From the IMG/VR virus record IMGVR_UViG_3300020445_000054, positions 1-27,547 of that record: a stretch of 27,547 bases of DNA. The stretch is one strand, 5' to 3'. This DNA is from a virus. The notes beneath the pieces were generated by a model. It did no database searches. It was not told the DNA's origin and was given only the letters and a program-made list of their open reading frames with translations. The translations under genes were made by a program, and so were the position numbers. Of the stretch, positions 2,217 to 21,773 are shown in pieces; the first letter of the stretch is position 1; every line of letters starts with the position of its first letter.

Positions 2217-2615
2217 ATGGCTGAGTCGAATTCCAAAGCATTTAAAGACATAGATCTTTCTTTCTTGCCACACCCTGTTTCTGGAGATGTGAGAGTCCTT
2301 AAGAATGAGGATGCGATAAAGAGAGCTGTAAGGAATTTGATTCAGACCATAGGTGGCGAAAGACCATTCTCGTCTAATCTTGGTACAGATGTGACTAGAT
2401 CACTATTTGATTTTGTTGATTATGGTACTGCAAGTGTCATAACTCAGCAAATTTTTGATGTTTTAAAGGGGTTTGAAGGTCGGATTGATAATACTGCAGT
2501 GAAGGTTGAACCTAGACCCAACGAAAACACATTTGAAGTGTTTATTACATACGATATTATAGGTCAAGACTTCCCAAGTCAAGAATTTGACTTTATGTTG
2601 GAATCATCTAGGTAA
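2217..2615 (+). CDS. 25: Baseplate wedge subunit gp25
   Basis: The 132-residue product is the same length as T4 gp25. It has the GPW/gp25-family signature GGERPFSSNLG at residues 46-56, preceded by a helix (EDAIKRAVRNLIQTI). The C-terminal half is a beta region ending FDFMLESS. In T4 the protein sits with gp6 and gp53 at the inner baseplate and helps trigger sheath assembly; a structurally related protein occurs in type VI secretion baseplates. Transcription should start at the late box at 2186-2193. The gap to gp6 is five bases. Confidence 0.95.
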   Translation: MAESNSKAFKDIDLSFLPHPVSGDVRVLKNEDAIKRAVRNLIQTIGGERPFSSNLGTDVTRSLFDFVDYGTASVITQQIFDVLKGFEGRIDNTAVKVEPRPNENTFEVFITYDIIGQDFPSQEFDFMLESSR

Positions 2616-2620
2616 TAAGA

Positions 2621-4540
2621 ATGCCATTCACCAAATTTACTAATTTAAATTTTAATGAAATCAAGGAATCTGTTAAAGATTACCTAAGAGCTAACTCTGA
2701 TTTCAAAGATTATGACTTTGAAGGGTCGAATATGTCGATTATTGTCGATATATTAGCGTATAATTCGTATATAACGGCGTTTAATACCAATATGGTTGCT
2801 AATGAGTCCTTTCTGGATTCAGCGACACTCCGAGAGAATGTAGTTTCCTTAGCAAGGAATATAGGATATGTACCCAGATCACGAAAATGTGCTCAAGCAG
2901 TAGTTAATTTTGATTATAAATTCACTGGAAATAGTAATACGGTCACTTTAAAGCAAGGTTTAGCGTTAGTTGGTGCTGTAAATAATACAAGTTATGTTTT
3001 TTCTGTCCCAGAAGATGTAACTGTTAATAGTCCTTTAGATGCTGGAGGCATAAGTGGAAATAATTCACCTAGAACAGCATCATTTTCTGGTTTAAATGTC
3101 TATCAAGGTACACTTTTAACTAAAAAGTTTACTGTAAATGGTAGTTCTGACCAAAGATTCGTTCTTGAGAACTCATTTGTCGATTTAGACACTCTCAGAG
3201 TTACTGTTAAGAAGTCTGGATCCTCTGCAGGACTAGCATTTTCAAGAATTGACAATATTATTGATGTAACTTCTGTGTCAAATGTGTATTTGGTACAAGA
3301 AGTTAAGAATGAGACCTATGAATTGCTCTTTGGAGATGGTCTTTTTGGTAAAAAACTTGAACTTGGCGATGAAATTAATATATCTTACATAGTAACAGAT
3401 GGAAAAGAGGGGAATGAAGGAAAATTCTTCAGTTTCTCAGGAAATATTGTAGATGATGCTGGAAATTCTCTTTCAGCGACCAATTTAGTAACAATAACTG
3501 CTACTCAAACCGCTAGGAATGGGTCGGATATTGAACAAATTGACTCTATTCGGTATTTTGCCCCTAGAATGTATTCCGCACAGAACAGGGCGGTTACACC
3601 TAGGGATTATGAGGCTATTATACAGTCTGTTTATCCAAATACGGAGTCCGTTTCCGTAGTTGGTGGTGAGGAATTGGATCCACCTGAATTTGGAACGGTT
3701 GTTTTAAGCATAAAACCTAAAAATGGTACATTTCTATCTGACTTTACCAAGCAGAACATCCTAAATGATCTTAAACAGTATGCAATTGCAGGTATTAACC
3801 AAAGAATTGAAGATTTAAAGATTCTATATGTAGAATTAGACAGTTATGTCTACTACAATAACAGTATTATTGATGATAAAGACCAACTTAAAGCAGAAGT
3901 TACTACTTCTCTTACAGAGTATGGAAAATCTGCTAATTTGAATGCATTTGGAGGTAGATTTAAGTATTCTGAGAGTCAACGAATTGTTGATGAGACAGAT
4001 CCTGCAATTACTTCCAATATTACACGAGTTACTATTCGTAGAGACCTAAAAGCACTCTTAAATCAGTCTGCTCAGTATGAATTATGCTTTGGTAACCAAT
4101 TTAACATCAAAACTGGTGGTGGAACTATTAAATCTACTGGATTTAGCATTACCGATATTGATGGTGAGGTATATTTGACAGATATACCAAGAGGGGATGG
4201 TCGATATGGTGATATTGCCATATTTAAACCTGCTGCTTCTGCTGAAGATGATGCAGTTGTTGTTGTTAAGTCTGCAGGTACTGTAGATTATATAAAAGGT
4301 GAAATTATACTCAATACTGTTAATATCTCATCAACAGTTAAGACAAATGATGTAGTTGAAATACAAGCATACCCCGAATCTAATGATATTATCGGATTAA
4401 AGGACATCTACCTAAGTTTAGACATGTCAAATACTACGATAAATATCGTCAGAGACACTATATCTTCTGGTCAGCAAATCTCTGGCATTGGATATAAAGT
4501 CACCTCTAGTTACTCTAACGGATCGCTAATTAGACAGTAG
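2621..4540 (+). CDS. 6: Baseplate wedge subunit gp6 (baseplate J-like)
   Basis: The 639-residue length is close to T4 gp6 (about 660). The N-terminal helical part (IVDILAYNSYITAFNTNM, around residues 45-62, then ATLRENVVSLARNIGYVPRS) is typical of gp6 homologues. LFGDGLFGKKLELGD near 235 and the block FAPRMYSAQNRAVTPRDYEAI, followed by a GGEELDPPEFG loop (about residues 313-355), are strong gp6/baseplate-J markers. In the T4 baseplate, gp6 dimers link neighbouring wedges into a continuous ring. The gene is complete, sits five bases after gp25, and ends one base before the giant gene, consistent with one late operon. Confidence 0.93.
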   Translation: MPFTKFTNLNFNEIKESVKDYLRANSDFKDYDFEGSNMSIIVDILAYNSYITAFNTNMVANESFLDSATLRENVVSLARNIGYVPRSRKCAQAVVNFDYKFTGNSNTVTLKQGLALVGAVNNTSYVFSVPEDVTVNSPLDAGGISGNNSPRTASFSGLNVYQGTLLTKKFTVNGSSDQRFVLENSFVDLDTLRVTVKKSGSSAGLAFSRIDNIIDVTSVSNVYLVQEVKNETYELLFGDGLFGKKLELGDEINISYIVTDGKEGNEGKFFSFSGNIVDDAGNSLSATNLVTITATQTARNGSDIEQIDSIRYFAPRMYSAQNRAVTPRDYEAIIQSVYPNTESVSVVGGEELDPPEFGTVVLSIKPKNGTFLSDFTKQNILNDLKQYAIAGINQRIEDLKILYVELDSYVYYNNSIIDDKDQLKAEVTTSLTEYGKSANLNAFGGRFKYSESQRIVDETDPAITSNITRVTIRRDLKALLNQSAQYELCFGNQFNIKTGGGTIKSTGFSITDIDGEVYLTDIPRGDGRYGDIAIFKPAASAEDDAVVVVKSAGTVDYIKGEIILNTVNISSTVKTNDVVEIQAYPESNDIIGLKDIYLSLDMSNTTINIVRDTISSGQQISGIGYKVTSSYSNGSLIRQ

Positions 4541-5430: not shown

Positions 5431-8400
5431 TATTTACGGGATTTGAAGAACGAGGTTTGACTGATGGTACTTTCATAGTACCTGGAAGAAGTAATAATAT
5501 TGGAAAAATTGGAATTGGTGCGTCTGTTATTACTGTAGACTCTACAATTGGTTTTTCTAGCATTGGTAATATTAAAGTTGGTGAAATTGGAACATCATTT
5601 TACCAAACATTCACTTATGGATCTAAAAGTATCAATCAATTCTTTGATGTTACTCCTTCAGTAAGTATCGAAATTCCAAGTAATAGTACAGTATCTACTT
5701 TTAATGTTGTTCATGGTTTTGAGGACGGAGATTCTAACAAAAAGGTAGAAATGCGTCTAACTGGCGTACTTGCTGATTTTGTTACTAGTAGATCTCTCCG
5801 CAACCTTAAATCTACTTCAGATATTAAGGTTAAGAACTTAGGAAGGTATATTTCAAACCCTAACATCAATAAGACTTATGATGAGGTCTTTTTCAATAGT
5901 TGGATCTATAATACATCCTCTAGATACCAAATAGAAAATTGGGGTGGATCTAATTTCACTCTTGTTGGTAATATTGAGAAAAGTAGTCTTAAAACTGGTG
6001 ATAGAATTGAAATTTTGCGTAGAAATAGTGAAGTTGTTGCTGCACCTTCTCTAATTGTTGCATCAGTCAACGCAAGTGCTAAATCTATCAGTTTAGATGG
6101 TACTATTCCTGCTCTTGATACAAGTTTGGATTATGATATCCGAAGACTGCAAGATAAAGTAAAATCATCAATTGTACCAGTTAAAGGTGGACAAGAACAG
6201 TTATTAACTGATATTAATAATGCATATATTGTTGATGAGTCTAAATCTGAATCAGGAAAGAGGGAAGCGTATGTTGCTTCTAGTTCTCTTCCCAGTTATA
6301 CTATTAAAGCAGATAGAATACATGCAGTTTTAAATAATCCTTCTCTTGGTGGGGGAAACTGGGCTGGATATAATAGCGTAGAGAACAAATATAGTATTAT
6401 TTCTTTTGCAACTGATGTTCCATTTGAAACTGGAGATGAAGTAATATATGCTCCAGATCCAGGAACTGAGGTTATTGGTGGATTATCTTCACCAAGTTAC
6501 TTTGTAGAAGTTCTAGGTAGTCCTAACCAGATCAAATTATACGCATCTCGCTCATTTATTAAAGCAAATCTACCAACATATTTTACTGCTCCTTCTTCAA
6601 GTACAGGTAGACATGACTTTATTCTTGCAACTCAAGGAACTAGAAATATCTTCCCTGCAAGACCAATAAAGAGGTTTATTCTAGAGCAACAACTTAAGAG
6701 TGGTAAAGAAGGTCAAACTACCTCTGAAGTTACCGTAGATGGCAATACTGCAATGCTTATTAATGGTATTGAGGTATTAAACTATAAAGGTGCTGATCAG
6801 ATATTCTATGGACCTGTAGATAACTTAAATGTTATCAATAGTGGTATATTATATGATGTTCAAGCAGCTCCAAACATTACTATTACTGATGCTGCGGTAA
6901 GTGTTGCAAATACTGCTGGAGCAGTTCCAGTTTTAAGTGGAATTGTATCGAGTATTGTTATCGATCCATCTGATTATGACCTTGATAAAGTCATTAGTGT
7001 TGAGATATATGGTGGTAATGGAAGTGGTGCTGTAGGTAGAGCACTAATTGAAGAACGATTTAGACAAGTATATTTTAATGGTATTAGTACTAATCTCGGT
7101 GGAGATGTTAGTGCAACTTACAATACATTCAATTTAGATAAAGATCATAATTTCTTAACTGGAGATAGGATAGTATACAATAATAATGGTGGATCTAATA
7201 TTGGTATTGCTACAACTGGATCTTCTTCTGATTCATTAACATTATTCAGTGGTCAGGATTATTATATAAATGTTTGGAATTCTAAGGTCTTTTCTCTTCA
7301 TAATAAGAAGAGTGATGCAGTTATTGGTATTAATACAATATTAATTGATGAAAATGCTGCTCAATCTAATGCAGGTCTTCATATTTTCCGTACTTTTGAC
7401 AAAAACCGCACAATTAGTAGAGTTGCTGTAGAAGAAATAGGATCAAATTACTCAAATAGAAATTTATTTGTTAAATCCGTCGGAATTAATACTTTTAATG
7501 ATTCTATTGAATTTATTAATCATGGATTGACCGATGGAGATGTATTGGAGTATGATAATAATGTAAATCCGATTATAACAGGTCTTAGTACAACAAAACA
7601 GTATCAAGTACTAAAGATAGACAAAGATAAGTTCAGACTTGCGGAAGCAGGAAATAAAGGTGATCGTGAACCGACTGAAACCAATTATATCAATCGTCAA
7701 AATATATTTTTAGATTCTACTGGTATTGGCACAGGATATCATCATTTCAAATATCCACCAATCGTATGTAAGGTTAAAGTATTAACTAAAGATCAGCAAG
7801 AACGAGAACTTACTGCAACTCCAGTTGTTAGGGGTAACATTAAAGAGATTTTAATGTATGAGCAGGGTGCAAACTACGGATCTACAATTTTAAACTTCCC
7901 AAATCCACCAATTATTAATATTCCTTTTGGTAGATTGGGGCAAATTGGTCTTATTATCTCAAATGGAACAATTACTGATGCTTATGTTGCTAATGGAGGA
8001 AGTGGTTATGTAGGACCACCTGATCTTAATGTAGTTAGTGCAGCAACAACATCGACTGGTGCAATTTTAAGATCTATTGTTAATGATGCTGGAAAGATTA
8101 CGGATGTGAAGGTCATATCTGGTGGTGTTGGATATGCAGATACTAATACTAGTGTTAATGTCGTACCTGTTGGTTCTGAGTTTAGGGCAGAAGCGTCTGT
8201 AAGACCTCTTACTGTTAATAAGGCATATCGCTTAGATCAGTCTGAAATGGACTATCTACAACCCATTGGAGAGGGTTTAGCAGTTAATGTTGTTGGATAT
8301 GGTAATTCTGTTAGGTCATTCTTTGGAGATGATGGATCTGGACATTCTCCTATAATTGGATGGGCATATGACGGAAATCCAGTATATGGACCTTATGGAT

Positions 8401-11400
8401 TAGTTGATACTAACAATATTCAGTCCAATGTTAAGAAGGTAGAGTCTAGTTATGAAATTTCAGCTACAAGTGTTGAGAATAGACCTCCATCATCACAATT
8501 CCCTTATGGATACTTTATAGATGATTATGTTTACACTGGAAATGGTGATTTAGATGAGCATAATGGTAGATACACTAAAACTCCTGATTTTCCTCAAGGA
8601 GTGTATGGTTATTTCGCTACTGTAGATCTTTTAAACGATCCTCAGTTCCCATTCTTCATCGGTAACACTTATAGATCTCGAGCTATTGAAGAAAATACTG
8701 TTAAGGGTCAATTAATTGATCAGACTAATTTTGATTTTGCTGGATCTTCTCTTGTAAGAAATACGCAACCTTATGGTTTATTTGGTGATGGTGTTTCTTA
8801 TGATTATGTTTTCCAACCATATAACACTAATAACCAAGTCTCAAACCCAAGTAATTTACTAGAGGGTTCTATAGAAAGCATTAATATTTTAACTGGTGGA
8901 TCTGGTTATAGTATTGGTGATAAATTAATATTTGATGAAACTGGTACTAATGGTGTTGGTGTAGATGCGGAAGTTCAGCAGCTTTATGGAGAACCAATTG
9001 ATAATATCACTAGTTCTGTAACTACATTATCAGATCTTCCTATCAAACATACTAGACAGGGTGTTGTTTTTAAATCATCTCCGTATCATGAATTTACTGG
9101 GTCAGATACAGTAAGAATTACTGGTATTTCCACTTACATCAAGGGATTGGATGGATTCCATAAAATTGCTGTTGCATCTTATGGATCATCATTAAGAGAC
9201 AATGGATATACTGGTATTATTACAGATCTAAAGGTTGAATTTGTTCCACCTAATATTGCTGTAGGGGATTCTATTGGTATTGGTACAGAGACTGCTCGTA
9301 TTCTTAGTTTCTACCCTAATGAGAAAATTGTTAGAATTGAAAGATATGCTGGATTTACCACTGCTGCAACAGGAGCTGCGGTCACATTCTTTACTAGTGA
9401 ATTTACAGTTCCTATAGAAGTAGATCCTTTTGAATCTAAGTTCCAAAATTTAATATACTTTAACCCCAAAGAATCTGTTGGTGTAGGAACTACAGTTGGA
9501 ATTTCTACTAGTGTAAATGTATCTCTTAATGGAGTTACTAAAGAGAGATCAATTCTTGCACAGTCTATACATTTACCTAATCATGGTTTATTAGATAATG
9601 ATAAGGTTACTTTTGATAAGCGAGGTAACACTGATTTATTTGTTACTGATTCTATAAGTCCGTACACTGCTCCAAGTGCTTTGAGTGGTGATTATTATGT
9701 TATTAATAAAACAGCAGATACTATTGGTCTTAAGACTAATACAAGTGGTCCAAATTTATTCTTTACTACAACAGGTGCTGATAAAGCGAATTATTCGTTT
9801 GTTTCAAATTACAGGCAAGAAAATGCTACCGTTAGAAGAAGTCAAGTAACAGTTCAGACAACCAAGAATCATGGATTGGAAGAAAATGATAGATTTAATC
9901 TAATAGTTAATACTGGATTGACAACTGGTATTGGTACTTCTACGAGAGCTACTGTTAAACTTATTGATGGATATACAATTATCAATCCTCTTGAGATACC
10001 TACAAGCGGAGTTAATAGCACAACTAGCATAATCACTATAGAGGATCATGCTTTAGAGACAGGATTTAAGGTTCTGCTCTATGGTGCTGGTGGAGATTCC
10101 TCTAAACTTCCTGGTGGATTAGAACAGAGACCATATTTCGTCTATAAAATTGATGATGACACATTCCAGTTATGTAACACTGATAAACAGTTAAAAACAA
10201 ATCCACCAGAAATTGTCGGATTTAATTCTACAGGATTTAGTGGACAAACTATTAATCCTATAAATCCACCAGTTTCAGTATTCCGTAATAATAATATTAT
10301 ATTTGACCTCAATGATACCAGTCTTTCTGGAGCAAATCTCAAATTTTTCTATGATAAGAATACTTTCAACGAATATGTTGGAACAGGACTTACATCAAAT
10401 CTAGAAGTTGTTGGTTTTGGTACTGTTGGTGTTGGAACCACCAATCCTGCTGATATGGCATATAAGCAGATTAATTATAGCGAAAATCTTAAAAATACTC
10501 TGTATTATGCTATAGAAAAGGGTGGATACATCACAACTAGCGAAACTGATGTATTATACGGAAATCAGATAAAATATACAAATAGTGGGTATAATGGAAA
10601 GCAATATATTGCTACTGGGGTTGCTGGAACATCATTTACTGCTAATATTGTTGCGGAACCAGAAAAATCTCGATATACGCAATCTGATTGCGAGGATTTG
10701 TATTATACCCATATAGGTGTTGCAGCAACTGGTGGTGTATCAAAAATCAAGATTAATAATGCTGGATTTGGATATAAGAAGCTTCCTGCAGTAACTTCTA
10801 TAGGATCTAGTGGTATTAGTGCGGAATTAGAGTTATTTGGGAATAATGTCAACCTATTGGAGGATGTTAGTGTTCCTACAGATGTTTATGGTTATCCTGC
10901 AGATAATACATTAAAACCAGATGCATTCTTGCCTAGGATTCTTCAAATTAAAAATGCAAGTAAGGTTCTCTCTGCAAGTGTAACTTTTGGTGGAAAATCA
11001 TACCTTAATGCACCATCTCTTGCTGTATATGATAAAACAACTGGAGAAATAGTTAATAACGGTCTTCTTACTGCGGAATTAAGTGATTCTGCTGTGAATA
11101 GGGTTAATGTTGTTGTTGAACCTAGAGGATTAACAGGTAACGATTATGGTATTGCTCCTTTAAGAAATAGTAACGGAATTAGTGTTATTGAAGCATTCTC
11201 TGATGTAGGAATTCTTACATGTAAGATTACTACTCCTATTCTTGGATATGATACAGAACCATTCTCTGTTGGTGATATTGTTTATCTTGAGGGTATAGAA
11301 TTTACTGCTGGAACTGGAGATGGATTCAACTCTGGTGATTATAAATTTGTTGACTTTGAAATTGCTGATTATAATAGTGCAACTAATCCAAGACAAGTCA

Positions 11401-14400: not shown

Positions 14401-17400
14401 GTGGTATTGCTAGTGTTAACTATACAGGTATTACTTCGTTTGGATATACAGATTTAATAATTGATGTAGATGATGTCAACCAGAACCAATTACCTAGAGG
14501 TGGAATCATTGTTTCTGTTGCTTCTACTCCAGGACAAGGATATGCTCCATTTAAAGGTGCTAAGATTCATGTAACTACTGGTACAGCTGGTGCTATTACT
14601 GGTATTACTGGTATATCAACAACAGACGACTTCATAAATGTAGAAAGTGCTATTTACGATACTAGAACTGGATTTGTAACGGTATCTACCGCACAGAATC
14701 ATAGATTGGGTGTTGAAGATTTTGCTAAGTTGGTTGGTTTAGAGTTTACATGTAATGGATATCAGCATACTTATATTTCTGATGCTGGTGCAGACTCTGC
14801 TTTAGAAGTAGGTGGTAATTATCCACACCAATGGGTAACAAGTTCATCAAACTCTATTGAATTTGGTGGAAGTTATGCACACCAATGGGTAAGTGCTAAT
14901 AGTAATGCAGTTAATGTACAGACTGGTTCTCAATCAGGAACACAGAAGTCACCTAGCAGTGGAACATACGATCCTGCTACTGGAGTATTGGCATTGACAT
15001 TTGGTGGCAATCATAATATGTCTACAAGTGATACTATTACACTTGATAACAATTCATTATTCTTCAAGTGTGCTAGAGACAATTATGCAACTACTCATTC
15101 ATATCCTCGGTCTGGATCTGATTACATCTCTGGAATAACAACTGCTGTTACAGTAACTTCAACAACTTCATTTACAATTAATGTTGGAACAACACCTTTA
15201 CAGTACTTTACTCCTACTGCTGGTGATTATAATGGTGCTACTGGTAATCTTACATTAACTATTGGATCTGCTGGTGTTGCTGCTGCTGTAGCAAATAATC
15301 TTAAGGTTGGTATTATCACAAGTTCTTTAACCTTTAGATGTGCTAGAGATGGATATGCTACAGATCATGTATATCCTCGTACAACTGATCCTATTAATAA
15401 TACGGTAGTGACTATTGGATCAACAACTACAGATACAATTACTCTTCCCGTTGGAATATCCACTAATGTTCGTTATGGAGTTTATAGTGCTGAATACAGT
15501 GGAGCAACAGGAATTATAAGAATTAGTACAGGAAGTTCTGCTTCTCAAGATGCAAATCAACCATTCGCTGTTGGTGATCTTGTTGGTATCGGAACGGATA
15601 CTCTTAAGTTTACATGTGCTAAGGACAATCACGCAACGATTCATACATATCCACGCTCATCAGATCCTGCACACAATGTAATGTTGTCTATTGCATCAAC
15701 ATCTCAAACTGAATTTACAGTTGATGTTGGTAAATCTGGTCTTGGTTATGGTAGTACTATTGGTATAACTTCCTTTGTTTATGACCATATCAGTGGCATT
15801 GCAACAGTACTTACTGTGACCCCTCACGGTTTCTCAGATCCAAGTATGGTTGGGATAACAACAGGTGGATTGACATTTACTTGCGAAATGGATGGTTATA
15901 GAACTAATCACACATATCCTAGAGCAACTGATCCTGTAAACAATAAGTTCTTAGAAATAAGAAATGTAACTAGAGATGAGTTTGATGTCAATGTTGGAAT
16001 ATCAACTCAAGTAACATATACACCTACAAATGCTGTATATGATCCTATTGCTGGCATCATGACGATGACTGTTGGATCTCACAACATTATGTCAGGTACT
16101 AATATTAAGATTGATCAAGAGTCACTTAACTTTAAGTGTGCTATGGATGGTCTTTCTACTACTAAGTCATATCCTAGAACAACTGATCCATATTTTGATA
16201 GATCTATTTCTGTTGCATCAACTACTGCTACAGGCATAGCAATAACTGTAGGAACAGCACCTACTGTAAATTACAGCATTACTACTGCAACTTACAATCC
16301 ATCTACGGGTATTGTAACTGCTACTATTGGACAACATCCTCTTAAAGATGGAACTTCTATTAAGTTGAAAGAAGGATCTCTAATCTTTAGATGTGCTACA
16401 GATGGTTATGCATCTACTTCAACATATCCTAGAAGCACTATTGACACTCAAACCATTAATGGTGCTACTTATGATGCCAATGTAGGTATCATGACAATCA
16501 CAGTAATTCCTGGTGGTCGTTTAATACATGATGGAGACTTTGTAAGATTTGATAATGACTCTATCAGATTTACTTGTGATATGGACGGTGGAACATCTAC
16601 CAAGTCTTATCCAAGATCTACTGATCCTTATAGTGGTAAGTGGATGCCTATTACAGGTATTGGAACTACTAGTTTCGCAGTTCAAGTAGGTAAGTCACCT
16701 ATACAACCTTTTGGTATCACCAGTGCGATCTATGACCCCACTGCTGGTATTGTGACAGTTACTATACCTGATCATACTTTAATGACTGGTACTAGCATAA
16801 GATTGTCACCTGAATCATTTGCATTTAGATGTGGTCTTGACACTTATCAAAGTATACACAGATATCCTAGAGCAACTGATACTGTTGGTTACAATACTGC
16901 AGTTTCAATTGCTTCTACTACTGCAAGTACTATTTCATTCCAAATACTTCCAAGTCAACCATCAAGTAATGTATCAACTCATCATCATGTACCTAATGAT
17001 AAGTTAACTCCAATAGGAGCAACTTATGACCCTGTTGTTGGTATCATGACTGTTACAGCTAACTCTCATGGACTTTCAAATGGTGATTATGTTAAGTTTG
17101 ATGATGGATCAGTTAGCTTTACATGTACTAGAGATAATAATAAGTCCGTTCATGCATATCCTAGAACAAAGGATCCTTATCACAATAACTGGATTAAAGT
17201 TTCTAATGTGACTACAAATACATTCAGAGTGAATGGTATGAGGTCATATGACAATGCTACACATACTTTTGTATCTGGTGTATCAGATAGTATTACAAGA
17301 TCAGTAATTGTTAGTGGCGGTGCGTATAATCACACCTTTGCTAGTGCTGGTGTGGGTAGTATGGATCAGAAGCGTGATAGAACTTATGATCAACCAGTTA

Positions 17401-20165
17401 AAATAACTGCTGGATATACTTTAGATACTGCAGAAAATGCTATCTATGACCCTGTTGCTGGTATTATGACAGTAACATCTACTGGTCATGGAATGATGAA
17501 TGGCGATTATGTTCTCTTTGAGAATAATTCAATCGCTCTTAAGTGTTCACAAGATAACTATACTACTGTTCACACATATCCTAGACTTACTGATCCAATT
17601 AGCGGTGATTGGGTATCAGTTGCAAGTACTACTGTTAATACATTTGCTGTAGATGTTGGTAAGACCAATACAGGTGATCAATACACTCATCAGTTTGCTG
17701 GTGCAGTAGCAAATGGTATTAGAAAACAAAATGGAACGGTAACTTTCCAAGCAGGTATTTCAACTGACACTACTGAGCATCGTTATGATATTATGGGTGG
17801 CCACCAAGCATCAAATGCAATTATTAGTGGTGGAAATTATGCACATACTTTTGTTAGTGCAGCAAGTGGTGCTGTTAAAACTGGTGGTGGATTTAATCAC
17901 AGATTAGTAAGTGCTGCTTCTAGTACTCTTTATATTGATGCTTGGACTGGTGCTGCTTTAACTGTATCAAATGCAGTATATAATCCTGAAACGGGAATCG
18001 TAAGATTTACTGCTAAGGATCATGGGTTAGTTTCTCCAGAGAATTTCAAATTTGAAGGTATTGGTGTTACATGCACATATGGATCTAAGACATATCCAAG
18101 TGGAGTTCAAGGTTATCATTATACAGTTAGATCAGTAGGAAATACTACATCATTTACCACATTCGTTGGATTCTCTACTGTACAGCATGATTATACTGGT
18201 GGTGGATCAGTACAGGTTGGAGTTACTAGTAACAAATTCCCAAGTTTTGACGAAGCATATCCTGTTGCAGGAATTGTTTCTGATAGATCATTTAAGGTGA
18301 ATGTTGGACCTAACACTATTACACATTCTTATGTTGGTGGTGGTCAAGTTGCTCAATGGCATCCACTTACATATGGTTCTGGGTATCAAACTGGACTAGG
18401 AACTATTGGTATTGCAGTATCTTCCCCAACTGGAGGAGTAGGTGCTCAAATTAATGCAGTTGTTGGTGCTGGTGGATCTTTAATATTCAGCATTGGTGCT
18501 GGTGGAACTGGATATACTGGTGAATATGATTGTGTTCATGCTCCAGAACCAAATGGTGAGAATATGCCTATCCGTGGTTTATACAGGATAGGTGGTGGAA
18601 CAGAAACTGGTGTGGGTTGTTCTATTAGTGTTCAAATTGCAGGTGTTTCTACTTCTACTGGTATTGGATCAACTCTAGCAGAAGTAACCGAATGGGAATT
18701 CACTAAGAAAGGTTATGGATTTAAGCGTGGTGATAAATTTACTGTTGCTGGTCTATCAACAGATCCTAATGCGGGTGATAATTATAAGGACTTTGAAATT
18801 GAAGTTATAGAAGTATTCACAGATCAAGTTGCTTCTTGGCAGTTTGGTAATATTGATTATCTTGATAATATTAAACCAAATCAAGATGGAAATCAAAAGA
18901 GATTCCCACTATACTACCAGTCACAACTAGTAAGTTTTGAGATTGATAGAAATGATCAAGATTCAAGAGAAATAGATCTATCAACCGTTCTATTAGTATT
19001 CATCAACGGAGTAGTCCAAGAACCAAATATAAATTATATCTTTACTGGCGGTTCTGTTATAGAATTCTCTAGTGCTCCAACTGTAAATGATAATGTTGTT
19101 ATTTTCTTCTACAGAGGAACAATAGGACAAGATAGTTACATTTACGACATTAATGAGTCTATCAAGGTTGGTGATACTTTAAGATTAGATAAGAGTGCTG
19201 AAATGCAACTTAATAAGGTTGTTAAGGATCAGTCAAACTTTGCTCAGATCGAGGATAGAATTATTAAGAGGATTGATAGTGCTGCTACTGTCGAAACCCC
19301 ATTCTATCAAGGTCCAGGTATTAGTAATGATAACTACAAACCACTTACTTGGACTAAGCAGAAGAAGGATCTATTTGTTGATGGTTCCTTAGTTTCTAAG
19401 GCAAGAGATTCATTTGAAGCTCAAATTAACCCATTGGGTCATATTATTGGTGTTCTTACAACAACTGATAACTATGTCTTTGTTGACACTGTTGGTAACT
19501 TTAGAGATACTGATAATCAATTAACAGAATCATTTGGATTACTTGCTATTGCTCCTGTTGGATTTGGTACAACAGCAGCTCCTGGAGTCAATTATGAGAA
19601 TATATCTGGTGTTGAACCATTAGTTGCTGATGTTCAAGGATACATAGGTGTGGTTACTGGTATAGGAACCACGGCTGGTATAGGAACAGATCTAGCAATT
19701 GAACTTCTAATTGATAACCAAGATTATGTTAATAGTGGAGGAGACGCTACTGGATTGTCAACCAACTATCCATTCAGATTATATGGAACAGGCATCAATA
19801 CAGTAGGAACTGCTATAACAAGTATTGATTCTCATGATACTGATATAGTTTCTATCAGTACACATTATGGAGATAATATTTACTACGCAAGTGCAATTAG
19901 TTTCCGTAATAATGGTCGTCAGGGTATTATTACAGCTAACATAGCATCGTATACAGATACGAGTGATATGGTTGGTATAGGATCTACTGCATTCGCTTAC
20001 GCTCACTTCACTTGGGGAAGATTTGGAAATGTCAGCAGAGCAGCTGCTCCAATCGCTCTTGATGTTAAGGGACTGTCTTATGACAACGAACTTAGCAACT
20101 TCCCTCTAGTTTTACGAAGGGGTGTAGGGCATAGAGGAACAGGAGCTCTGCCCAAACTTCTATAA
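4542..20165 (+). CDS. 7: Giant gp7-like baseplate wedge protein with adhesin-like insertions
   Basis: The single uninterrupted frame encodes 5207 residues, about five times T4 gp7 (about 1030), in the gp7 position between gp6 and gp8. Gp7-like signs are LFSKFLEQYY (residues 33-42), a KGTRASFKILFKALFG segment near 205-221 followed by KLVGQTLFQ, and NDIVHPAGF ending about 2452. From memory these resemble a KGIEASYKFLFKVLY segment and an HPVGF segment of T4 gp7. Between and after them lie inserted modules: HGL/GD repeats (about 390-1890), GGxGY repeats, a YHYH-like domain (1268-1380), two INGV/LNGL-Q-P segments (about 3070 and 4825), a NQNQLPRGG segment near 3315, and a C-x2-D-x7-YPR array (about 3470-4377). 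The C terminus RRGVGHRGTGALPKLL is of a type common in cyanophage wedge proteins. Probably a wedge backbone plus an outward-reaching, possibly receptor-binding, extension. No signal peptide or membrane segment. Confidence 0.85.
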   Translation: MIETYSPLSPRVKTYQVVSELIPEFAKSENPLFSKFLEQYYISQDFQGGPADIAENIDAYIKVDNLTTDVIRGTTTLIGDILSTDTTITVDSTDGYPQKHGLFKIDNEICGYTGITTNSFTGVWRGFSGISTFTKQNDPSALNWEQTVAESHTTGASVVNLSSLFLKEFYKNLKAMYTPGLEGVTLSPQLDVNNFIKEARSLYEAKGTRASFKILFKALFGVDPKINDLEKYLIKPSFANYLRRRTVSVQLISGDPSKLVGQTLFQDNDPTNPQFNEASGPISEVSNIRDDYYKLSLFTGFEERGLTDGTFIVPGRSNNIGKIGIGASVITVDSTIGFSSIGNIKVGEIGTSFYQTFTYGSKSINQFFDVTPSVSIEIPSNSTVSTFNVVHGFEDGDSNKKVEMRLTGVLADFVTSRSLRNLKSTSDIKVKNLGRYISNPNINKTYDEVFFNSWIYNTSSRYQIENWGGSNFTLVGNIEKSSLKTGDRIEILRRNSEVVAAPSLIVASVNASAKSISLDGTIPALDTSLDYDIRRLQDKVKSSIVPVKGGQEQLLTDINNAYIVDESKSESGKREAYVASSSLPSYTIKADRIHAVLNNPSLGGGNWAGYNSVENKYSIISFATDVPFETGDEVIYAPDPGTEVIGGLSSPSYFVEVLGSPNQIKLYASRSFIKANLPTYFTAPSSSTGRHDFILATQGTRNIFPARPIKRFILEQQLKSGKEGQTTSEVTVDGNTAMLINGIEVLNYKGADQIFYGPVDNLNVINSGILYDVQAAPNITITDAAVSVANTAGAVPVLSGIVSSIVIDPSDYDLDKVISVEIYGGNGSGAVGRALIEERFRQVYFNGISTNLGGDVSATYNTFNLDKDHNFLTGDRIVYNNNGGSNIGIATTGSSSDSLTLFSGQDYYINVWNSKVFSLHNKKSDAVIGINTILIDENAAQSNAGLHIFRTFDKNRTISRVAVEEIGSNYSNRNLFVKSVGINTFNDSIEFINHGLTDGDVLEYDNNVNPIITGLSTTKQYQVLKIDKDKFRLAEAGNKGDREPTETNYINRQNIFLDSTGIGTGYHHFKYPPIVCKVKVLTKDQQERELTATPVVRGNIKEILMYEQGANYGSTILNFPNPPIINIPFGRLGQIGLIISNGTITDAYVANGGSGYVGPPDLNVVSAATTSTGAILRSIVNDAGKITDVKVISGGVGYADTNTSVNVVPVGSEFRAEASVRPLTVNKAYRLDQSEMDYLQPIGEGLAVNVVGYGNSVRSFFGDDGSGHSPIIGWAYDGNPVYGPYGLVDTNNIQSNVKKVESSYEISATSVENRPPSSQFPYGYFIDDYVYTGNGDLDEHNGRYTKTPDFPQGVYGYFATVDLLNDPQFPFFIGNTYRSRAIEENTVKGQLIDQTNFDFAGSSLVRNTQPYGLFGDGVSYDYVFQPYNTNNQVSNPSNLLEGSIESINILTGGSGYSIGDKLIFDETGTNGVGVDAEVQQLYGEPIDNITSSVTTLSDLPIKHTRQGVVFKSSPYHEFTGSDTVRITGISTYIKGLDGFHKIAVASYGSSLRDNGYTGIITDLKVEFVPPNIAVGDSIGIGTETARILSFYPNEKIVRIERYAGFTTAATGAAVTFFTSEFTVPIEVDPFESKFQNLIYFNPKESVGVGTTVGISTSVNVSLNGVTKERSILAQSIHLPNHGLLDNDKVTFDKRGNTDLFVTDSISPYTAPSALSGDYYVINKTADTIGLKTNTSGPNLFFTTTGADKANYSFVSNYRQENATVRRSQVTVQTTKNHGLEENDRFNLIVNTGLTTGIGTSTRATVKLIDGYTIINPLEIPTSGVNSTTSIITIEDHALETGFKVLLYGAGGDSSKLPGGLEQRPYFVYKIDDDTFQLCNTDKQLKTNPPEIVGFNSTGFSGQTINPINPPVSVFRNNNIIFDLNDTSLSGANLKFFYDKNTFNEYVGTGLTSNLEVVGFGTVGVGTTNPADMAYKQINYSENLKNTLYYAIEKGGYITTSETDVLYGNQIKYTNSGYNGKQYIATGVAGTSFTANIVAEPEKSRYTQSDCEDLYYTHIGVAATGGVSKIKINNAGFGYKKLPAVTSIGSSGISAELELFGNNVNLLEDVSVPTDVYGYPADNTLKPDAFLPRILQIKNASKVLSASVTFGGKSYLNAPSLAVYDKTTGEIVNNGLLTAELSDSAVNRVNVVVEPRGLTGNDYGIAPLRNSNGISVIEAFSDVGILTCKITTPILGYDTEPFSVGDIVYLEGIEFTAGTGDGFNSGDYKFVDFEIADYNSATNPRQVTFAYTGLSTNPGIGATVVPGFGQIVKSGDLARFSALKSFSEFRINEPLRRNSDLYTDLVMTDLDTNTGIMVVSGSLNLEIDDQLTGTNSGDVCEVQAITEFDGYFDISSTIDTNVGWSDNIGLIGDNNQFLPDNDYYQNMSYAIESEKTYADLITYVNDIVHPAGFKNFANTQILTKGDAGESFIPAADAGGLVLDFVSDPLRIDAIYNYDISRDANSANNLSKFLELQQTRLADFILCKTNRVLLHDDISPQFISNESNDLSDSRVIAATLAGRYFSRYLVQTIHDAQDPLKNHYQMNELILITSGGDTYLVQKSALNNTNQVGLATGYGEFFAQYNVNNGQTQVRIKPYEPFDTNYDIKAMQQGFADATGTGQTSLGNAELRSVNISVGTATTTQIVGFNTANLAGSHGHIAVINKSENKVDYHELILQHDGTDTYMTEVASFNNRQSLGGISSPQFMGTFTSEIDSGVVKLNYIHSESQSIDLRCKFMSFNPVGYGTTAVKYFNIPFTPEGSERSGRIIVGSSATTGIATICGITSFTDLSFKSSVSVSYGNTQTFHQIYVLSDPHKVDTFLSQGPIAAVGTTTGVGSFGAEFSGNSVNLEFYPDAGVTGIVSIFSYNEVIYKQNDPNGLLVGIGSFDYGQVFENVTQNTYLGINNRNIRKFGLKYQNTPIYQRAFNPENANEVDKGTGLITLKHFFSNTEKVSYLPDSNIVGLAASSLEYSTGYGSTVLPSTCYIVKSNNNQFYISTSITDARVGKAVTFASGAGQGNLHKFTMDKRDSKSIIALNGLVQKPLSHTSITYDLDVAVNGFVTCFALSGLSTITSGDLLKIDDEYSIVQTVGFGSTTTGPITGIGTWSLVEVERGTVGSSATVHSAGSTARIYRGAFNIVDSDIYFTNAPLGGDLGMIDPGNLPYPRASFGGRTYLRQDYATNQIFDDNSDGFDGLENIFPLTSTGVAVTGIGSTGGNGVLFINSMFQAPFGENNEGVANFKIIEQSLGGIASVNYTGITSFGYTDLIIDVDDVNQNQLPRGGIIVSVASTPGQGYAPFKGAKIHVTTGTAGAITGITGISTTDDFINVESAIYDTRTGFVTVSTAQNHRLGVEDFAKLVGLEFTCNGYQHTYISDAGADSALEVGGNYPHQWVTSSSNSIEFGGSYAHQWVSANSNAVNVQTGSQSGTQKSPSSGTYDPATGVLALTFGGNHNMSTSDTITLDNNSLFFKCARDNYATTHSYPRSGSDYISGITTAVTVTSTTSFTINVGTTPLQYFTPTAGDYNGATGNLTLTIGSAGVAAAVANNLKVGIITSSLTFRCARDGYATDHVYPRTTDPINNTVVTIGSTTTDTITLPVGISTNVRYGVYSAEYSGATGIIRISTGSSASQDANQPFAVGDLVGIGTDTLKFTCAKDNHATIHTYPRSSDPAHNVMLSIASTSQTEFTVDVGKSGLGYGSTIGITSFVYDHISGIATVLTVTPHGFSDPSMVGITTGGLTFTCEMDGYRTNHTYPRATDPVNNKFLEIRNVTRDEFDVNVGISTQVTYTPTNAVYDPIAGIMTMTVGSHNIMSGTNIKIDQESLNFKCAMDGLSTTKSYPRTTDPYFDRSISVASTTATGIAITVGTAPTVNYSITTATYNPSTGIVTATIGQHPLKDGTSIKLKEGSLIFRCATDGYASTSTYPRSTIDTQTINGATYDANVGIMTITVIPGGRLIHDGDFVRFDNDSIRFTCDMDGGTSTKSYPRSTDPYSGKWMPITGIGTTSFAVQVGKSPIQPFGITSAIYDPTAGIVTVTIPDHTLMTGTSIRLSPESFAFRCGLDTYQSIHRYPRATDTVGYNTAVSIASTTASTISFQILPSQPSSNVSTHHHVPNDKLTPIGATYDPVVGIMTVTANSHGLSNGDYVKFDDGSVSFTCTRDNNKSVHAYPRTKDPYHNNWIKVSNVTTNTFRVNGMRSYDNATHTFVSGVSDSITRSVIVSGGAYNHTFASAGVGSMDQKRDRTYDQPVKITAGYTLDTAENAIYDPVAGIMTVTSTGHGMMNGDYVLFENNSIALKCSQDNYTTVHTYPRLTDPISGDWVSVASTTVNTFAVDVGKTNTGDQYTHQFAGAVANGIRKQNGTVTFQAGISTDTTEHRYDIMGGHQASNAIISGGNYAHTFVSAASGAVKTGGGFNHRLVSAASSTLYIDAWTGAALTVSNAVYNPETGIVRFTAKDHGLVSPENFKFEGIGVTCTYGSKTYPSGVQGYHYTVRSVGNTTSFTTFVGFSTVQHDYTGGGSVQVGVTSNKFPSFDEAYPVAGIVSDRSFKVNVGPNTITHSYVGGGQVAQWHPLTYGSGYQTGLGTIGIAVSSPTGGVGAQINAVVGAGGSLIFSIGAGGTGYTGEYDCVHAPEPNGENMPIRGLYRIGGGTETGVGCSISVQIAGVSTSTGIGSTLAEVTEWEFTKKGYGFKRGDKFTVAGLSTDPNAGDNYKDFEIEVIEVFTDQVASWQFGNIDYLDNIKPNQDGNQKRFPLYYQSQLVSFEIDRNDQDSREIDLSTVLLVFINGVVQEPNINYIFTGGSVIEFSSAPTVNDNVVIFFYRGTIGQDSYIYDINESIKVGDTLRLDKSAEMQLNKVVKDQSNFAQIEDRIIKRIDSAATVETPFYQGPGISNDNYKPLTWTKQKKDLFVDGSLVSKARDSFEAQINPLGHIIGVLTTTDNYVFVDTVGNFRDTDNQLTESFGLLAIAPVGFGTTAAPGVNYENISGVEPLVADVQGYIGVVTGIGTTAGIGTDLAIELLIDNQDYVNSGGDATGLSTNYPFRLYGTGINTVGTAITSIDSHDTDIVSISTHYGDNIYYASAISFRNNGRQGIITANIASYTDTSDMVGIGSTAFAYAHFTWGRFGNVSRAAAPIALDVKGLSYDNELSNFPLVLRRGVGHRGTGALPKLL
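7860..8160 (+). repeat. GGxGY-type beta repeats in the giant protein
   Basis: Three successive units carry GANYGS (about 7867), NGGSGYVGPPDL (about 7993) and SGGVGYADTNTSV (about 8118), each followed by a short beta strand. Related units recur in the same protein near 8892 (TGGSGYSIGD), 10758 (NAGFGYKKLP) and 18498 (GAGGTGYTGE). They also occur twice in gp8 and at the visible end of the last gene. Confidence 0.6.
8343..8680 (+). other. YHYH-like domain inside the giant protein
   Basis: Residues 1268-1380 contain HSPIIGWAYDGNPVYGPYG, then LDEHNGRYTKTPDFPQG, then VYGYFATVD and FPFFIG. These match in order the YHYH-protein family pattern (GHSPI-G-A-DG-PIYGP, LDE-NGR, YHYH, YPYFIG). The family's eponymous YHYH reads YGYF here, so both His of that tetrad are absent. 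The family function is not well established; here it would sit as a projecting module of the baseplate protein. Confidence 0.75.
11814..12990 (+). other. Second gp7-like and jelly-roll-like module of the giant protein
   Basis: Residues about 2425-2816. A helix (ESEKTYADLITYVNDIVHP) runs into HPAGF (H2448), resembling the HPVGF region of T4 gp7. This is followed by LSKFLELQQTRLADF, NRVLLHDDISPQF and a long beta-rich stretch ending in FTPEGSERSGRIIV. If the gp7 comparison holds, the ancestral chain has been interrupted by roughly 2200 residues between the KGTRASFK segment and this one. Confidence 0.5.
14751..18110 (+). repeat. Tandem C-x2-D-x7-Y-P-R repeat array in the giant protein
   Basis: Ten copies share F/L-x-C-x2-D-[GN/T]-x2-[ST]-x-[HKS]-x-Y-P-R, with Cys and Tyr always 11 residues apart. 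The Tyr codons are at 15102, 15372, 15648, 15915, 16170, 16425, 16608, 16863, 17157 and 17577, giving periods of 90, 92, 89, 85, 85, 61, 85, 98 and 140 residues. Between them lie an IASTT/VNVG strand pair and a YDP-x-[TA]-GIMTVT strand pair. Degenerate copies flank the array (FTCNGYQHTY at 14745, VTCTYGSKTYPSG at 18069). Each full copy has one Cys and no partner Cys. I do not recognise the family beyond similar units in cyanophage structural proteins. Confidence 0.85.
14811..17931 (+). repeat. GGxYxH-FVSA short repeats bordering the YPR array
   Basis: A short unit of about 18-22 residues, GG-x-Y-x-H-[TQ]-[FW]-[VA]-[ST]-[AS], recurs on both sides of and within the YPR array. Copies are GGNYPHQWVTSS (14811) and GGSYAHQWVSAN (14865) before it; GGAYNHTFASAG (about 17317) in the expanded gap between copies 9 and 10; and QYTHQFAGAV (about 17680), GGNYAHTFVSAA (about 17829) and GGGFNHRLVSAA (about 17884) after it. 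Each has a conserved His. It looks like a separate module that invaded the array. Confidence 0.65.
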
Positions 20166-20201: not shown

Positions 20202-21773
20202 ATGGCTGCAATTATCACAGACCAGTTTAGGATCATTAATGCTAATAATTTCGTTGATTCGGTGATTAGCGGAAATAATTCCTATTATACTTTTTTAGGT
20301 CTGGCCAATCCAACAGAAACTGGATATGGGCGAACAAGTACTTGGAACAGTACTACGGTTCAGCCACCATCCCCCACAGATAGTATTAGTTACATAAATC
20401 ATGTATACGATACTATGTTGTTTGGAAGAAAGGTTCTTCCTGGAGATGTTCGTAGATTAGTCCGAAAGGTTCAATGGACAAAAGGTACATCATATGATAT
20501 GTACCGTCATGATTATGATGTGAACAATAGGTCACTAGTTTCTAACTCTAGTAGACTGTATTCTGCAAACTATTATGTAATCAATAAAGACTTTAGGGTT
20601 TATATTTGTATTGATAATGGATCTGCAGGTATTACATCTACTGCAGGTGCATCTCTTGACGAACCTACCTTTACTGATCTTGAACCATCTGCTGCTGGTG
20701 TCAGTGGTGATGGTTATTTGTGGAAGTATCTATTTACAGTTCCTCCTGCTGATATTGTAAAATTCGACTCTACTGAGTATGTTGCTGTTCCTAACGAATG
20801 GACATCAAGTGTCGAGAATGAGATTAAAGTTGTTAGGGACAATGGTGATTCAACGGTAAATAATAACCAAATTAAGGTTGTTTCTATCGATGGTCAAGGT
20901 GAAGGTTATTCATTCCTTGCAAGTCCTATTGAAGTTGATATATTGGGTGATGGAACTGGGGGTAAAGTCCGAGTTCAGACCAATACAAATGGTCAATTAA
21001 CTTATGCAAAAGTGACTGCAGGAGGGCAAGGTTACAGTTATGGAAGGGTTGATCTTTCTTCTATCAATGGTAGTGCTACAAAGTTTGCTAAGCTCACTCC
21101 CATAATTCCTCCATCTAGAGGACATGGATATGATCTTTATAAAGAACTAGGAACTGATAAAGTTCTGATATATACTAGATTTGATAGTTCTACATACGAT
21201 TTCATTTCTGACACAACATTCTCTCAAGTTGGAGTTGTTAAAAATCCTGTTGCTGCTGGTGCTGGATCTACTGCTGTTCTTAATACATCAGAATATTCTG
21301 CTGCTAGTGCGTTGAAGTTTACTGGTGATCTCACACAGACTCTTGCAGTTGGTTCTGAGATTACACAAAACAGACCTGGATTTGGAACTGCAAGAGGTTA
21401 TGTTGCTTCTTATGATGTTACTACAAGAATAATTAAATATTTCCAAGATAGAAACCTTTATCTTCATCCTACTATATTTGACCAAACTGATAATATTGGT
21501 GTTGGTGGAGATGCAAAAGTTCTCGAATTTAATTCTGCTGGTGATGCTGTCATCTCTAGCGGATTTAGTGTAAACATAGATTCAGGTTTTTCTGGAATCT
21601 CAACAACTACTCCATCTGGTAAAGTTGTGGATCTTGGCGTACAGTTTACAAGTGGTCTTGCTGGACCTGAAATAAATAAAAGAACAGGTGAGATTATTTA
21701 CCTTGATAATAGACCATCTATTACAAGAAATGAACGCCAAAAAGAAGACATCAAAATCGTATTAGAATTCTAA
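20202..21773 (+). CDS. 8: Baseplate wedge subunit gp8, enlarged
   Basis: The 523-residue product matches T4 gp8 (about 334 residues) at several points: ITDQFRIINANNFVDS at the N terminus, PPSPTDS (55-61), KVLPGDV (77-83), GDGYLWKYLFTVPP (169-182), and a C-terminal TGEIIYLDNRPSI followed by EDIKIVLEF (about 495-523). In T4, gp8 forms a dimer that binds gp10 and gp7 in the wedge. About 190 extra residues lie between roughly 200 and 490. This insertion carries two GGxGY-type units (GQGEGYSF near 231 and AGGQGYSYG near 273), the same module type as in the giant protein. The gene has its own late promoter at 20161-20168 and ends four bases before the next start. Confidence 0.93.
   Translation: MAAIITDQFRIINANNFVDSVISGNNSYYTFLGLANPTETGYGRTSTWNSTTVQPPSPTDSISYINHVYDTMLFGRKVLPGDVRRLVRKVQWTKGTSYDMYRHDYDVNNRSLVSNSSRLYSANYYVINKDFRVYICIDNGSAGITSTAGASLDEPTFTDLEPSAAGVSGDGYLWKYLFTVPPADIVKFDSTEYVAVPNEWTSSVENEIKVVRDNGDSTVNNNQIKVVSIDGQGEGYSFLASPIEVDILGDGTGGKVRVQTNTNGQLTYAKVTAGGQGYSYGRVDLSSINGSATKFAKLTPIIPPSRGHGYDLYKELGTDKVLIYTRFDSSTYDFISDTTFSQVGVVKNPVAAGAGSTAVLNTSEYSAASALKFTGDLTQTLAVGSEITQNRPGFGTARGYVASYDVTTRIIKYFQDRNLYLHPTIFDQTDNIGVGGDAKVLEFNSAGDAVISSGFSVNIDSGFSGISTTTPSGKVVDLGVQFTSGLAGPEINKRTGEIIYLDNRPSITRNERQKEDIKIVLEF

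Follow-up and report, generated by a model that had tools for sequence, protein, structure and literature searches.

A tandem array of cysteine-bearing units, predicted to be small beta-barrels, in a giant baseplate-locus protein of a cyanophage-like virus

A giant protein and its repeat array

The window analysed here is a 27,547-nucleotide stretch of viral DNA (IMG/VR record IMGVR_UViG_3300020445_000054). It carries genes in the order gp25-gp6-X-gp8-VrlC-like, where X is a giant ORF (Table 1); beyond the gp8-like gene lies a long ORF which is still open at the end of the window. The same layout is seen in cyanophages. For example, the gene order in P-HM2 is gp6, gp7, gp8, VrlC. Lying between gp6 and gp8, the giant ORF occupies the position of gp7 in T4-like phages, and its product matches phrog_2885 with 2442 bits over aa 11–3298. 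With PF23786 (Baseplate_wedge), the protein scores 20.8 bits (E 2.9e-4, aa 189–225), short of the 27-bit cut-off. Homologues appear in GenBank as gp7, baseplate wedge initiator or subunit, virion structural protein, or hypothetical protein. A passage of PMC7029224 states that cyanophages are without T4 gp7 and have VrlC in its stead, and a passage of PMC3037559 places gp7 among non-cyanophage core genes. Because these sources deny or omit gp7 in cyanophages, "gp7" serves here as a label of place and annotation. Judging from the names of related records, which are not direct proof, the phage presumably has a cyanobacterial host.

Other features of the locus can be mentioned briefly. An ORF at positions 843–1598, upstream of the baseplate genes, matches phrog_1574 and, weakly, a glycosyltransferase PHROG. 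The giant protein itself contains a YHYH domain (PF14240, E 1.9e-23) at aa 1266–1362, corresponding to window positions 8337–8627; this domain is described, in a part of PMC7824862, as a predicted metal-dependent hydrolase with a zinc site.

An earlier note on this DNA, made from its letters alone, had pointed to ten copies of the motif C-x2-D-x7-YPR. We find exactly ten matches, all of them in the giant ORF on the plus strand, with cysteines at aa 3510, 3600, 3692, 3781, 3866, 3951, 4012, 4097, 4195 and 4335. Their codons span window positions 15069 to 17544, and the Cys-to-Cys spacings are 90, 92, 89, 85, 85, 61, 85, 98 and 140 aa. The motif did not occur once in 2000 shuffles of the giant protein. 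The ten copies share only 24–46% identity in pairwise comparisons, and Tandem Repeats Finder detects no array at the DNA level. Two further claims of the earlier note are borne out: His or Lys stands at +9 in nine of the ten copies (His in 7, Lys in 2, Ser in 1), and each full repeat has a lone Cys, there being no others between Cys3404 and Cys4511. Flanking the array are two worn units, recognized by the family profile, which have kept the Cys and lost both the Asp and the YPR, while copy 6 is without its C-terminal half. Another short repeat, GG-x-(Y/F)-x-H-x-(F/W/L)-(V/A)-(S/T), is interspersed among and around the Cys units at five places, aa 3424, 3442, 4259, 4430 and 4448.

Table 1. Genes and repeat features of the window (positions are those of the 27,547-nucleotide stretch)
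Feature	Position	Strand	Basis or remark
gp25-like baseplate wedge protein	2217..2615	+	PF04965
gp6-like baseplate wedge protein	2621..4540	+	Pfam/PHROG profile matches
Giant ORF, 5207 aa	4542..20165	+	gp7 place of T4-like baseplate locus; phrog_2885, baseplate wedge subunit
Cys-less HGL..ND segment, aa 1663-1697 of giant protein	9528..9632	+	PF12195 E 8.3e-6, 26.1 bits (cut-off 35)
Repeat cassette, about aa 3363-4611	14628..18374	+	missing from colinear S-SRM01 protein
Worn N-terminal unit, aa 3370-3411, Cys3404	14649..14774	+	no D/YPR; profile E 5.5e-8
Copy 1, Cys3510	14964..15197	+	motif and family profile
Copy 2, Cys3600	15216..15464	+	motif and family profile
Copy 3, Cys3692	15489..15737	+	motif and family profile
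Copy 4, Cys3781	15768..16007	+	motif and family profile
Copy 5, Cys3866	16026..16262	+	motif and family profile; Lys at +9
Copy 6, Cys3951	16281..16439	+	motif and profile; C-terminal half absent; spacing 61 common to relatives
Copy 7, Cys4012	16461..16700	+	motif and family profile; Lys at +9
Copy 8, Cys4097	16719..16958	+	motif and family profile
Copy 9, Cys4195	17016..17246	+	motif and family profile; top profile score among the ten
Copy 10, Cys4335	17436..17669	+	motif and family profile; modelled singly
Worn C-terminal unit, aa 4477-4546, Cys4511	17970..18179	+	no D/YPR; profile E 7.5e-15
gp8-like baseplate wedge protein	20202..21773	+	PF09215; phrog_438

The array in related genomes

The repeat is genuine and is widely distributed among cyanophage-like genomes. 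A tblastn search with a 172-aa query (copies 5 and 6, preceded by the end of copy 4) gave matches in 171 of 50,697 phage records, named without exception Synechococcus, Prochlorococcus, Cyanophage or Marine virus, with a best identity to the query of 44%. The first 500 aa of the giant protein, used in the same way, matched 462 phage records; as these are different queries, 171 versus 462 is not a strict ratio. Under the final profile, 15 of the 364 relative or neighbour loci that were fetched contain no unit (L045–L049, L138 and L207–L215). In bacterial and archaeal genomes, the scan for the repeat gave four loci in three assemblies. One of these, NZ_RMVE01000006.1 (188235 bases), is titled Nonlabens xiamenensis strain 1Q3. 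In that assembly, psbA and a gp8-like gene share one contig, with coordinates compatible with the repeat contig, and a cyanophage genome inside a Flavobacteriia assembly seems to explain the match.

Several annotated families and proteins can be compared with the window protein. It is matched by phrog_1276, phrog_2885, phrog_5342, phrog_701 and phrog_18802; phrog_2885, a "baseplate wedge subunit," covers the protein, and phrog_1276, for which no function is given, matches the repeat region in ten stretches. These PHROGs, however, are sequence clusters rather than a described mechanism. The gp7-annotated proteins of P-SSM4, P-SSM2, P-HM2 and S-SSM7, as well as the Syn1 tail fibre, are of the same locus or class and contain the same Cys-YPR units, but differ from the window protein in the number and layout of units. 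In S-SSM7, the protein is split in two, with the units in the second ORF and the first, gp7, ORF unit-free. In the open-access PMC literature, a scope that leaves most subscription papers outside, we found no description of the repeat or its Cys.

The S-SRM01 protein (3898 aa) is particularly informative. Window aa 11–3362 align with its residues 12–3325 at 39% identity, and window aa 4612–5205 with its residues 3328–3896 at 40%; no repeat unit is present in this S-SRM01 ORF. Two further off-diagonal matches, at 21% and 27%, are weak and were attributed to internal repeats. Since the S-SRM01 numbering runs on from 3325 to 3328, the whole array appears to be present or absent as one block; by this alignment it is an indel cassette between the two proteins. 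The existence of S-SRM01 suggests that virions without the cassette may be viable.

Within closer relatives, the array is conserved in register. In each of nine ORFs, the copies are positional orthologues with spacings of 85, 85, 61, 85 and 98 aa, followed by one of 140–143 aa wherever the ORF extends that far, and changes in copy number consist of losses among the first three copies and gains before or after the set. Strict motif copies number 0 to 17 per unit-bearing ORF in the first 119 viral loci and up to 28 in one ORF among all those fetched, many ORFs in these counts being clipped at the ends of the fetched loci. It is conceivable that the array binds nothing and is only a spacer whose length varies, the motif simply marking this subfamily of barrels. 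A copy number that varies, a cassette that can be missing, and units kept at fixed spacing in close relatives, as for a fixed scaffold, would all suit such a spacer; the likeness of the unit to sugar-binding barrels (in Foldseek and VIA-align, and to K1F; see below) and its occurrence in proteins annotated as tail fibres would not. On balance, we regard a pure spacer as rather unlikely.

Predicted fold of the unit

The unit is predicted to be a small beta-barrel. For copy 10 alone, with an input of 120 of 204 natural units at under 55% identity plus copy 10 itself, the AF2 model has a pLDDT of 88.3, a pTM of 0.76 and seven short strands; the Cys comes directly after the strand at 36–39 and is followed by a short turn with the Asp. 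A three-copy model, for which nine rows slipped by one unit were dropped from an alignment of 35 to leave 26, is weaker (76.4, pTM 0.41). When the copy 10 model was compared with the PDB using Foldseek, no solved structure was found at E 0.001. The top eight rows are all endosialidases (E 0.028–0.31, probability 0.96–1.00, TMq 0.53–0.60). In VIA-align, the model matches endoNF 429–493 (Z 5.8; 63 residues, 2.5 Å), phi92 261–325 (Z 5.4) and UBA1 220–282, the FCCH region of E1 (Z 5.2), as well as unrelated barrels in the head-to-tail interface protein of phage FCWL1 (Z 5.5) and in V-ATPase chains (4.1–4.5); these count as ties by the rule of the tool, and a Z under 8 may reflect mere common arrangement. 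A viral structure library gave 26 matches past E 0.001, many of them nameless and the named ones all Synechococcus phage proteins.

Sequence profiles give faint matches in the same direction. PF12195 (End_beta_barrel) matches 12 of 121 units weakly (best E 0.0052), below its cut-off of 35 bits, and gives nothing up to E 1 in copies 3–5, 9 and 10 of the window. PF16190 (E1_FCCH) matches 4 of the 121, with a best E of 2.6e-4; copy 9 reaches 17.4 bits (E 0.0046) versus a cut-off of 29.5 bits. About as weak are the matches to PF14262 (Cthe_2159), found in 10 of the 121 units (best E 8e-4) and also in copy 9. We place more trust in an endosialidase/FCCH fold because these profiles indicate the same two families as the structural comparison, though not these alone, and because a Cys-less segment elsewhere in the giant protein also matches PF12195 (Table 1). 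Taken together, the modest fold scores and weak sequence matches suggest that the bead probably shares the fold of the endosialidase beta-barrel domain and the ubiquitin E1 FCCH domain.

The endosialidase barrel (PF12195; endoNF/K1F and phi92), which combines the best fold match with a weak sequence match, differs from the unit in its setting, being single in an enzyme rather than part of a tandem array, and FCCH belongs to a eukaryotic ubiquitin-activating enzyme. The unit profile also weakly matches residues 119–142 of 8bke (E 1.0), which we take to be KP34gp57 from its name, "protein 57," and its length. In a part of PMC10653864, KP34gp57 is described as having a six-stranded barrel at 103–203 that helps form a sugar-cleaving cleft; unlike the unit studied here, this barrel is inserted in a beta-helix enzyme and contributes to the catalytic cleft. 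Two other candidates were set aside. Iota-carbonic anhydrase (7c5x) matched with a whole-sequence E of 1.3e-4, taken as chance given that its single stretches have i-E values of 3.2 to 320, and a PDB sequence search with the array gave a single match (E 0.32), likewise judged to be chance. The earlier note knew of no named family for the repeat. This holds for sequence, as nothing exceeds a curated cut-off in Pfam and NCBIfam has no match, but not for fold, where solved analogues exist at modest scores. We would class the unit as a Cys-bearing form of a small barrel of known kind, arranged in tandem in a cyanophage-type baseplate protein.

The cysteine and the possible role of the array

The units compared number 3721 aligned, 2396 of them distinct, from 347 loci and the window. 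In the 1953 that are well covered, weighted conservation is 99.8% for Pro50, 99% for Gly10 and Cys38, 97% for Tyr49, 94% for Arg51 and Asp54, 91% for His19 (in an HGL..GD turn), and 90% for Phe36 and Asp41; position 47, that is +9, is His in 67% and Lys in 25%. The Cys, which the earlier note had called invariant, is carried by all 2030 distinct units with YPR and by 176 of 176 such units at under 50% identity. With the Cys column blinded as a check for profile bias, it was still found in 2028 of 2028 YPR units. A search for YPR-x2-3-DP alone gave 1545 distinct contexts, of which 1504 have a Cys 9–14 residues before the Tyr. Among the other 41, three have an extra, nearer Cys at distance 2 besides the usual one, in two the loop is shortened and the Cys stands at distance 7, and 36 show no Cys in the 20 residues before the Tyr. 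Nearly all of these last (35/36) have another YPR 15–45 residues upstream and are read as half-units without strands 1–4, and in the remaining one a Cys lies further up an enlarged loop. Half-units of this kind, starting at YPR, occur in related loci (for example, L081, L222 and L307); because they complement copy 6, the break point of the unit is seemingly the strand 5–6 loop.

What does the Cys go with? Among 725 non-redundant units, all 489 with His47 have it, as do 169 of the 170 with Lys47 and 60 of the 64 in which position 47 is something else; the two units gapped at 47 have no Cys. It also stays in 191 of 195 distinct units in which Asp41 is replaced, and where both Asp and His/Lys are missing, 40 of 42 units retain it. 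Position 38 is occupied by some other residue in 18 distinct units; all of these lack YPR, and 16 have His19. These counts imply that the Cys tracks the hairpin, and not Asp, His47 or His19. They bear directly on the suggestion in the earlier note of a Cys-Asp-His metal site, by which each bead, perhaps with the help of His19, would bind metal and the array would form a metal-loaded arm akin to iron-binding HxH fibres. Each of the four residues is indeed 67–99% conserved, Asp41 couples to positions 45 and 47, Cys replaces His at +9 in one lineage, and a part of PMC11705849 reports iron-binding HxH motifs in phage tail fibres, those of cyanophages included. However, the would-be ligands are not co-conserved. 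A quarter of units have Lys at +9 and nearly always retain the Cys, Asp-less units do so too, and His19 survives where the Cys is lost. The independence of the Cys from Asp and His speaks against a Cys-Asp-His triad as an obligatory feature, and the HxH type of tail fibre can be dismissed as well, the motif being non-recurrent and found at only two places, aa 2696 and 4147, in 5207 aa. Overall, we consider metal binding by the beads very improbable.

Where the Cys points can be approached from mean-field couplings (effective number 879). These give a hairpin register of 35–48 and 37–46, with 35–46 as a diagonal, by which 34, 36 and 38 lie on one face together with 45, 47 and 49. Arg51 is coupled with Asp54, and Asp41 with 45 and 47 of the same hairpin, so that the proximity of Cys, Asp and His proposed in the earlier note is plausible. 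Couplings 38–49 and 38–51, between near-invariant columns, were left unused, as they rest on few odd sequences. By strand alternation (L34-F36-C38), the Cys shares a face with the conserved Leu34 and Phe36, and this face is presumed to be the inside of the hairpin. The Cys is thus probably inward-pointing, near T45 and H/K47.

This orientation argues against disulfides between neighbouring beads or between chains; for the inter-chain kind, another idea of the earlier note, we find no evidence. Virions exist in an oxidising medium and each bead has a single unpaired Cys, so such bonds might be thought to lock the arm upon release into oxic seawater. Nevertheless, a Cys on the Leu34/Phe36 face is probably turned inward, additional cysteines occur in only 60 of 718 units and at scattered positions, and no cysteines exist in the array beyond those of the ten copies and the two worn units. 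Locking by disulfides therefore strikes us as highly improbable.

Because alternation and couplings put the Cys inward, a buried structural thiol, in a bead that binds glycans or acts as spacer, is most likely. Buried structural cysteines usually accept Ala, Ser or Val. That no such swap is seen in 2030 units suggests something more than packing, and, as this lack of replacement is unusual, there is room for a specific thiol role. The giant protein also has Cys-less HG-L..GD segments, one of which weakly matches PF12195, and these suggest that the fold can form without the Cys. One could envisage a specific reactive or covalent thiol in every bead, which might be bonded to Lys or His, act as a redox switch or serve to attach a ligand. 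Its constancy, even in units of low identity, would fit such a role, the Cys being roughly as conserved as the Gly of the turn and the Pro, and so would its apparent location on the same face as His/Lys47 and diagonal to it, judged by couplings and register. Yet with Lys in a quarter of units and His in two thirds, no one bond chemistry fits all, and most units with neither still have the Cys. We see a reactive thiol as distinctly unlikely. It appears quite improbable that a functional thiol beside His/Lys, for example through a covalent Cys-Lys or Cys-His link or as a redox-sensing switch, makes the arm rigid or sets it free at a photosynthetic host; if it does, a widespread marine virion would carry in this array a chemical sensor or lock with many sites.

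The explanation that we favour, and to which we would give about an even chance as a whole, is that of a cassette of barrel beads for glycan contact or spacing, each with a buried Cys that holds a hairpin. About twelve small beta-barrel beads in tandem would make up one cassette, inserted in the C-terminal third of the giant baseplate protein at the gp7 place; ten of the beads have the full motif, one of these being shortened, and two are worn. The phage itself would be T4-like and of the cyanophage kind. By analogy, the array would probably form an extended arm at the baseplate edge, whose repeated, diverging loops may make weak multivalent contact with host-surface glycans or act as a spacer for such contact. 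In each bead, the Cys would end strand 4, on the presumed inner face of the strand 4–5 hairpin, where Thr45 and His/Lys47 would lie close by; Asp41 would cap the turn of the hairpin and Arg51 would pair with Asp54. The main job of the Cys would then be that of a buried thiol holding the hairpin on the barrel, rather than metal binding or chain linking.

Glycan binding and surface exposure of the array are candidate roles, proposed by analogy. In a portion of a preprint (PMC12632334), the barrel of the K1F endosialidase is described as having a polysialic acid site and as a hotspot of host discrimination, with some loop changes discriminating hosts; the same source finds the barrel largely permissive to mutation, which counts against our reading. 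In one comparison, according to a passage of PMC7029224, the baseplate is the structural region most unlike T4. In the literature that we found, no role is described for the variable part of the giant protein at the gp7 place. Its anatomy can now be outlined as a removable set of small barrels, with a fold probably of the kind that serves phage tailspikes in binding sugars and with a Cys that is not lost. T4-like cyanophages are abundant in the ocean.

Finally, some variant units were observed. Another Cys-keeping type without D or YPR, IEFSC...FPD, is present in S-T4 and Sf-CH5; its profile bled into the first unit type, and for this reason we give it no count of its own. In copy 9 of L011:5446-6252, from a lineage close to the window, a Cys stands at +9 (KVCGYPR), as it does in three distinct units in all, and the two Cys of this hairpin possibly form a disulfide. 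In addition, 18 distinct units (for example, in L064 and L065) have at least three Cys, the extras being at 14 and 73 in 5 units and at 12 and 73 or 75 in 4. The positions concerned lie on strands 2 and 7, which are paired by couplings, and the extra Cys there are possibly an added disulfide.
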